Origin: Candidatus Aquidulcis sp. | Lineage (GTDB): Bacteria; Chloroflexota; Anaerolineae; Anaerolineales; UBA4823 | Direction: 5' to 3' | Length of the DNA stretch: 45,874 bases | Assembly (NCBI GenBank): GCA_020723385.1 | Contig: DYIZ01000036.1 | Coordinates: forward strand, 1 to 45,874 | In this document: positions 11,145-12,548 of the stretch, piece after piece | Layout: the number at the start of each line of letters is the position of its first letter | Numbering within the stretch: position 1 is the stretch's first letter | Notes under the pieces: generated by a model | The model's input: only the letters and a program-made list of their open reading frames with translations | Told to the model about the DNA's origin: nothing | The model's database searches: none | Position numbers and translations under genes: made by a program

Positions 11145-12548
11145 ATGTCGCAACGTAATCCGAAGAAAACACGGGCCGCACCGCCAAAGGCAACCGAGCC
11201 AAAGGCAGAGGCCTCGACGGCAGAGCAAATCGAGTCGCCGCAATCGCCTGGCGAAACACCCCCCGCCGGCGGCGACTGGCTGGGGACGCTCGTTCGCAAC
11301 CCGGTGGCCTGGATCGTGGCGGTAGTGCTCCTATTGCTGGCCGGAATCGGCATCCCGACCATACTGGATGGAGCCAAACCCACCCCCACCGCCACTGCAA
11401 CGCGTTTGCCCGATCCGACTGCGACGCCAGCCCCGGTAGCGGGATGCACCGTGGTCAGCCTGCTGCCCACCCCCGGCCCAACCGAGCAATCGCTCTTCCC
11501 GGATGTCACCGAGAAAGATTGGTCGCGCGGCCCACTCACCGCCTCGGTGACCATCATCGAGTACAGCGATTTTCAATGACCCTACTGCGCGCGCATTGCG
11601 CCCGTGTTGGCGCAGCTCGAAGAAAAATATCCGAATGATTTGCGTGTCGTTTTCCGCCATTTCCCGTTGATGAGCATCCATGACAAAGCCGCGCTCTCGG
11701 TGCAAGCTGCCGAAGCCGCCGGGTCACAGGGCAAATTCTGGGAGATGCACGATTTACTGTTCGCCCGCCAGGCGCAATGGTCTGGCCTGACACCGGATGA
11801 GTTCAAAACCTGGGCGATTGCGGCCGCGGCTGAGATCGGTTTGAACCAATCCCGCTTCACATCTGACTTCAACAGCCCAGCGGCCGCGGCGTTTGCTCAA
11901 AAAGCCTGGGAGGATGGGCAGAAAAGTCTCCTGCCGGGCACGCCTTTTCTGCTGGTCAACCGCAATATCTGGCCCGAAGCTCTCCCGATGGATGTAACCA
12001 ACATCTCGATGATCATCGAGTTGACACTGTTCGAGGGTAAGCAGTTCACCTACTGCCCGCCGATGACGATTGATCCGTTGAAGCAGTATGTGGCGACGAT
12101 CCGCACCGCCAAGGGCGACATCGTGTTAGAGTTGTTTGCCGATAAAGCTCCCATGGCGGTAAATAATTTCATCTTCCTTGCCCAACAAGGCTGGTACGAC
12201 GGCGTGACTTTTCATCGGGTCATCCCAGGTTTTATGGCGCAGGGAGGCGATCCCACGGGCACCGGTTTTGGCATGCCGGGCTACGCCTTCGCCAACGAAA
12301 CATCGCCTGACCTGGTCTTCGACCGCGAGGGCTTGCTGGCGATGGCGAATGCCGGCCCCGACTCGAACGGCAGCCAGTTTTTCATCACTTATGCCCCCGC
12401 GACGAACTTGAACGGCGGCTACACCATCTTCGGGCAGGTTATTTCCGGGATGGATGTGGTGAAGGCTTTGACCCCGCGTGATCCCTCTCAGAACGCCGAT
12501 TTGCCGCCGGGGGATGTGATCGAGACGATCACGATCGAGGAGAAATAG
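11145..12548 (+). CDS. Selenocysteine-containing DsbA-like thioredoxin / cyclophilin fusion
   Basis: Read through one in-frame TGA (11577-11579), this is a 467-residue membrane-anchored protein. ATG 11145 follows GGAG by 6 nt. Residues 1-45 are a charged cytoplasmic tail, then a transmembrane helix (NPVAWIVAVVLLLLAGIG), a Thr/Pro linker, and a thioredoxin_4/DsbA-type domain. In it TVTIIEYSDFQ is followed by the TGA and then PYCARIAPVLAQLEEKY, so the TGA (codon 145) sits exactly at the first Cys of the CPYC redox site. From about 308 there is a cyclophilin peptidyl-prolyl isomerase (IRTAKGDIVLELF, FHRVIPGFMAQGGDP, GSQFFITYAP, IFGQVISGMDVV). An extracytoplasmic disulfide/proline folding factor is inferred. 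The hairpin after the TGA supports Sec insertion; a nonsense mutation is the alternative. Confidence 0.85.
11577..11579 (+). other. In-frame UGA, predicted selenocysteine codon (U145)
   Basis: The codon replaces the first cysteine of the DsbA-type CxxC motif (FQ-U-PYC). Both sides of it are in the same frame and both are needed to build one thioredoxin fold. A suitable hairpin starts 16 nt downstream. Confidence 0.85.
11596..11615 (+). promoter_or_regulatory. Candidate bacterial SECIS hairpin
   Basis: TGCGCC (11597-11602) pairs perfectly with GGCGCA (11609-11614), extended by a U-G pair, around the six-base loop CGUGUU. The loop begins 23 nt after the UGA and has a G in its first two positions, both of which match published rules for bSECIS elements. 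An alternative overlapping stem (CTGCGC 11585-11590 with GCGCAG 11610-11615) exists. Confidence 0.7.

Follow-up and report, generated by a model that had tools for sequence, protein, structure and literature searches.

A predicted selenocysteine-containing DsbA-like protein fused to cyclophilin, recurrent in Chloroflexota

DsbA-like and DsbG-like proteins with a UxxC site are established selenoproteins: they were listed by 2005 and are included in a 2026 review (PMC1088965, PMC1794560, PMC13188914). In the DsbA-like form 1 proteins (PF01323), present in the 2005 Sargasso Sea survey (PMC1088965) and in the table of the review (PMC13188914), selenocysteine (Sec) occupies the first position of the CxxC motif of a DsbA domain and a bSECIS lies downstream; no C-terminal PPIase was seen in the sections consulted, and the words "cyclophilin" and "prolyl" do not occur in the review. 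The nearest named selenoprotein family is the DsbG-like Rcas_1661 family of thioredoxin-like (seleno)lipoproteins (NCBIfam NF041057, listed as DsbG-like in PMC13188914), which has a Trx fold with a UxxC or CxxC site. Fusions of Sec-containing Trx-fold domains to a second domain are known from the Global Ocean Sampling survey (PMC2398784), where those named in the sections consulted are Prx-PP2C phosphatase, Prx-like and UGSC fusions and Ndh-SelD, with no DsbA-cyclophilin among them. Sections of PMC12013277 and PMC5029168 likewise show no cyclophilin fusion. Bacterial cyclophilins (PF00160) share the whole cyclophilin fold with the protein described here, in which, however, the cyclophilin is the C-terminal domain of a redox protein with an inferred membrane anchor. 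No report of a Sec-DsbA fused to cyclophilin was found, in a literature search limited to titles, beginnings of abstracts and excerpts of a few papers.

The gene was examined in a window of 45,874 nucleotides from Candidatus Aquidulcis sp. (assembly GCA_020723385.1, contig DYIZ01000036.1). On the forward strand, the frame 11145-12548 is open from ATG to a TAG stop at 12546-12548 except for a single TGA at 11577-11579 (codon 145), which almost certainly codes for Sec. This codon replaces the first Cys of a CPYC site (FQ-U-PYC), while Cys148 (11586-11588) is the second residue of the redox pair. Read through, the frame encodes 467 residues, of which 322 follow the TGA (323 codons with the stop, so that the count of 323 further codons in the original prediction is right to within one); reading with table 11 splits the gene at the UGA.

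The domain composition was defined by Pfam searches. A charged N-terminus is followed by a hydrophobic segment at about residues 48-71 (11286-11357, helix 53-65 in the structural model), inferred to be a membrane anchor, and by a Pro/Thr-rich linker; the consensus of 67 relatives has a lipobox-like LxAC. The DsbA-like thioredoxin domain (11511-11981) matches Thioredoxin_4 (PF13462, residues 123-279) and DSBA (PF01323, residues 136-283), and Pro267 within a GTP loop (11943-11945), invariant in 67 of 67 aligned rows, is taken as the cis-Pro of the Trx fold. The cyclophilin domain (12096-12497, residues 318-451) matches Pro_isomerase (PF00160) with 157 bits and retains Arg358, Phe363 and Gln366, presumably the catalytic positions, which are kept in 56, 50 and 59 of 67 aligned rows, respectively. 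An AlphaFold2 model based on an alignment of the 67 relatives has a mean pLDDT of 87 and a pTM of 0.74, with block means of 91 or more from residue 121 on. Solved cyclophilins match the C-terminal part (e.g., PDB ID: 1w74, 55% identity over 152 aligned residues), while DsbA, BdbD and a 27 kDa outer membrane protein (PDB ID: 3gyk) match the middle part by sequence. The Foldseek and VIA matches cover almost only the cyclophilin half; the assignment of the DsbA half rests on Pfam, the PDB sequence search and the model rather than on a fold search of its own. The match to NF041057 is well below its curated cut-off of 190 bits: the 247-position model scores 69.7 bits and covers only residues 79-252 of the fusion, not the cyclophilin.

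The genome (6.4 Mb, 239 contigs, 95.6% complete) encodes the machinery for Sec insertion. It contains selB (323.6 bits with its neighbour stretch, over the curated cut-off), selA (E 4e-164), a tRNA-Sec of 72 bits called tRNA-SeC with anticodon tca by ARAGORN, and selD (326 bits; contig C221, 12200-14300), which itself has one in-frame TGA, read as CAGUASK, with two hairpins predicted downstream of its UGA. A second, stand-alone DsbA-like gene of the same genome (contig C149, 30230-30778; 136 bits with NF041057, also below the cut-off) has TGA at the same site (FSDYQ-U-PYC), as do nine stand-alone loci from eight family genomes; a tenth locus, selected for its TGA, has Cys there and the TGA further on. 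The presence of tRNA-Sec does not predict Sec at codon 145. A match over the cut-off was found in 31 of 38 family genomes and in 295 of 396 genomes drawn from the class, and in 12 of 15 and 40 of 55, respectively, of those with a Sec fusion, the latter the same as the background. A laxer search of the 18 negative genomes gave at best 50.1 bits; 8 of 18 exceeded the cut-off of 47, yet the second-best match in the genome of the window, clearly below its true one, already has 46.6 bits. Most of these assemblies are incomplete; however, one 95% complete genome carries TGA in the fusion and in a paralog, as well as selA and selB, but no tRNA-Sec was found in it in two searches.

The same codon carries TGA in many relatives from little-studied Chloroflexota, which makes chance very unlikely. 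Of 135 loci examined first, 93 had both domains with codon 145 aligned, giving 82 distinct rows (21 Sec, 43 Cys and 18 other). The draw of 396 class genomes gave 121 fusion matches in 119 genomes at E 1e-75 or better. Of the 56 hits with a TGA other than the window, 55 have it at exactly codon 145, while one has it far upstream and Asp at 145; the 64 hits without TGA comprise 46 Cys, 9 Ser, 3 Ala, 3 Asp, 2 Thr and 1 Glu. With the window, the class draw thus contains 56 Sec, 46 Cys and 19 other. Altogether, 202 rows gave 196 distinct ones, with 74 Sec (from 76 rows, the window included), 86 Cys and 36 other. Two distant Thermoflexales-type fusions have about 300 residues of open frame upstream of the CxxC. 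On a quick tree of the 196 rows, the Sec/Cys/other state needs 26 changes; a more careful tree of 82 rows gives 14 changes for Sec (11-15 in bootstraps), 5 of them forced by starred branches.

A hairpin at 11596-11615 agrees with all four rules of the bSECIS model as printed in PMC13188914 (an apical loop of 3-9 nt with an upper stem of 4-16 bp, G in the first two loop positions, 16-37 nt between UGA and loop, and an energy of -7.5 kcal/mol or lower). It starts 16 nt after the UGA and consists of a 7-bp stem (11596-11602/11609-11615) and a 6-nt loop CGUGUU (11603-11608) with G in second place, 23 nt from the UGA; the hairpin taken alone has -10.7 kcal/mol. The support is comparative, as folding of the window sequence alone gives none: the hairpin is not the minimum-energy fold of 11577-11622, a competing fold having -14.1 kcal/mol (no better than shuffles, z 0.23). 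The competing 5' arm is formed by nucleotides 6-11 after the UGA, where a ribosome standing on the UGA would presumably cover it. Against synonymous-codon shuffles, a hairpin search tuned to the bSECIS rules gave a mean z of -1.42 for 21 Sec rows, -0.37 for 43 Cys rows and -0.22 for other rows (Mann-Whitney p 5e-5 for Sec against Cys), although only 5 of 21 Sec rows reach p 0.05 singly and the window has p 0.13.

In the 21 Sec rows first obtained, stem columns 20-26/33-39 are paired in 90.5% of cells against 82.9% in shuffles, with changes on both sides in 10 cells and a covariation score of 0.245 against 0.132, reached by 0 of 500 shuffles. Two of five measures, however, do not exceed shuffles (pairs with change on both sides, 288 of 500; further pair types, 495 of 500), and the relatedness of the rows inflates one of the controls. 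The same columns in 21 of the 43 Cys rows plus the window row, from which the rows that looked most distant were left out, are paired in 53.9% of cells against 50.8% in shuffles, with a covariation score reached by 94 of 500 and somewhat high pair types (24 of 500). RNAalifold finds exactly this hairpin in the Sec rows and no pair in the other alignment. The loop codons CCC GTG occur in 18 of 21 Sec rows and 1 of 43 Cys rows; this single Cys (TGC) relative (row L060, 396-455) keeps the near-type hairpin and looks like a fossil SECIS, likely reflecting a recent Sec-to-Cys change.

Among the 74 distinct Sec rows, the hairpin occupies one of two exclusive positions. The near type, found in the window, is present in 31 rows (loop 23 nt away, CGUGNU), while 39 rows have a far type at columns 35-41/45-51 with a 3-nt loop (GGU in 30 of 39), 37 or 38 nt from the UGA depending on how the closing U-A is counted; four rows have neither by the criterion used (two of them are the near form with a mismatch) and none has both. 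Far-type stems are paired in 96.9% of cells, with 39 cells changed on both sides and a covariation score of 0.433 against 0.133, and near-type stems of all 31 rows in 94.0%, with 31 cells and 0.411 against 0.134 (for the near type, pairs with change on both sides do not exceed shuffles, 134 of 500). As the two classes were defined after seeing the data and by pairing, these percentages are flattered, unlike those of the initial 21 rows; the compensating changes are not created by that choice alone, since the shuffles keep the same letters. Against synonymous shuffles, near-type rows have a mean z of -2.05 at nt 17-42, compared with -0.23 in 89 Cys rows. In far-type rows, the stretch between UGA and hairpin (nt 4-34) is also more structured than shuffles (mean z -1.69), which is not the case in near-type (0.20) and Cys rows (-0.24).

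On the quick tree, near/far needs four changes, and one near-type row (L235) inside a mostly far-type clade still carries the CTGGTA letters of the far loop. It is about as likely as not that the recoding hairpin changed place within one orthologous gene while the UGA stayed at one codon, the extra structure of the far type perhaps shortening the effective distance to SelB, although gain, relocation and transfer cannot be told apart here. The same reading extends to the redox pair. Cys148 is present and Cys141 absent in 74 of 74 Sec rows and 84 of 86 Cys rows (two lack Cys148), whereas of the 36 rows with another residue at 145, 26 have both Cys141 and Cys148 and 10 have neither. Cys141 never occurs with Sec or Cys at 145. 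This correlation, in rows that share ancestry, looks like a move of the first thiol by four residues in some lineages and loss of the redox site in others.

The genomic neighborhood was compared in 60 loci of 5 kb or more, including a few near-copies and some with under 2.5 kb of downstream flank. A PrsW-family intramembrane protease (PF13367; 12549-13979, forward strand) follows on the same strand in 41 of 60 loci, and a VTT-domain membrane protein (PF09335; 15727-16404, forward strand) lies near in 28, 27 of them on the same strand. The original prediction placed the gene in an operon with PrsW and a subtilase; the subtilase next door is real, but it was found in 0 of 60 related loci at E 1e-5, so that PrsW, often followed by the VTT-domain protein, is the recurrent neighbor. 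The prediction of a Sec oxidoreductase fused to a proline isomerase is otherwise supported.

Taken together, the gene very probably encodes a selenoprotein, in which SelB carrying Sec-tRNA(Sec) would bind the hairpin at 11596-11615 while the ribosome stands on UGA 11577, inserting Sec as the nucleophilic first residue of the U145-P-Y-C148 site. The product is inferred to be anchored by its N-terminal helix with both domains outside the cytoplasmic membrane, where the Sec/Cys pair would make, break or reshuffle disulfides of exported proteins while the cyclophilin speeds proline isomerization. Another protein of the genome, with a Trx-like domain (CGHC) fused to VKOR (contig C98, 944-1330), is a candidate oxidase that could reoxidize a DsbA-type partner.

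Whether the site acts as an oxidant or an isomerase is open, and a role as a disulfide reductase/isomerase or peroxidase remains a real, though somewhat less favored, possibility: Sec tends to be favored for reductive or peroxidatic catalysis, and the nearest named family is listed as DsbG-like. The best PDB sequence relatives include DsbA and BdbD proteins and a Trx-VKOR oxidase candidate exists, but neither decides the direction. It is improbable that the UGA acts mainly as a stop, giving a membrane peptide of 144 residues and a cyclophilin half made separately by re-initiation, with the hairpin regulating the ratio, perhaps by selenium supply. A 314-aa frame from GTG 11604 does exist, and Sec UGA codons may compete with termination; however, the hairpin goes with the TGA and not with the downstream frame, and Cys and other relatives read straight through as one frame. 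Reading of the UGA by something other than Sec-tRNA, through genome-wide reassignment (Trp, Gly) or near-cognate read-through, is very unlikely: although the frame is open on both sides, TGA ends other genes of the window, such as PrsW, and 19 of 76 Sec fusion rows (5 of 21 and 14 of 55), it falls inside the conserved part on the catalytic Cys codon only, and selA, selB, selD and tRNA-Sec are present. A point mutation, assembly error or decaying Cys-type gene, conceivable given the Cys codon in 86 of 196 rows and a draft genome of 239 contigs, can be all but dismissed in view of the 74 distinct rows sharing the TGA, the absence of any other stop in the frame, the covarying hairpin in TGA rows but not in the Cys alignment, and the Sec machinery.

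The fusion of a Sec-DsbA to cyclophilin adds a selenoprotein architecture found in 55 of 396 sampled genomes of the class, and suggests that selenium is used in extracytoplasmic protein folding in Chloroflexota. With Sec, Cys, no-redox and shifted-Cys versions of one gene, and two SECIS layouts, the family is a natural experiment on how Sec is gained and lost and how far a bacterial recoding hairpin may sit from its UGA.
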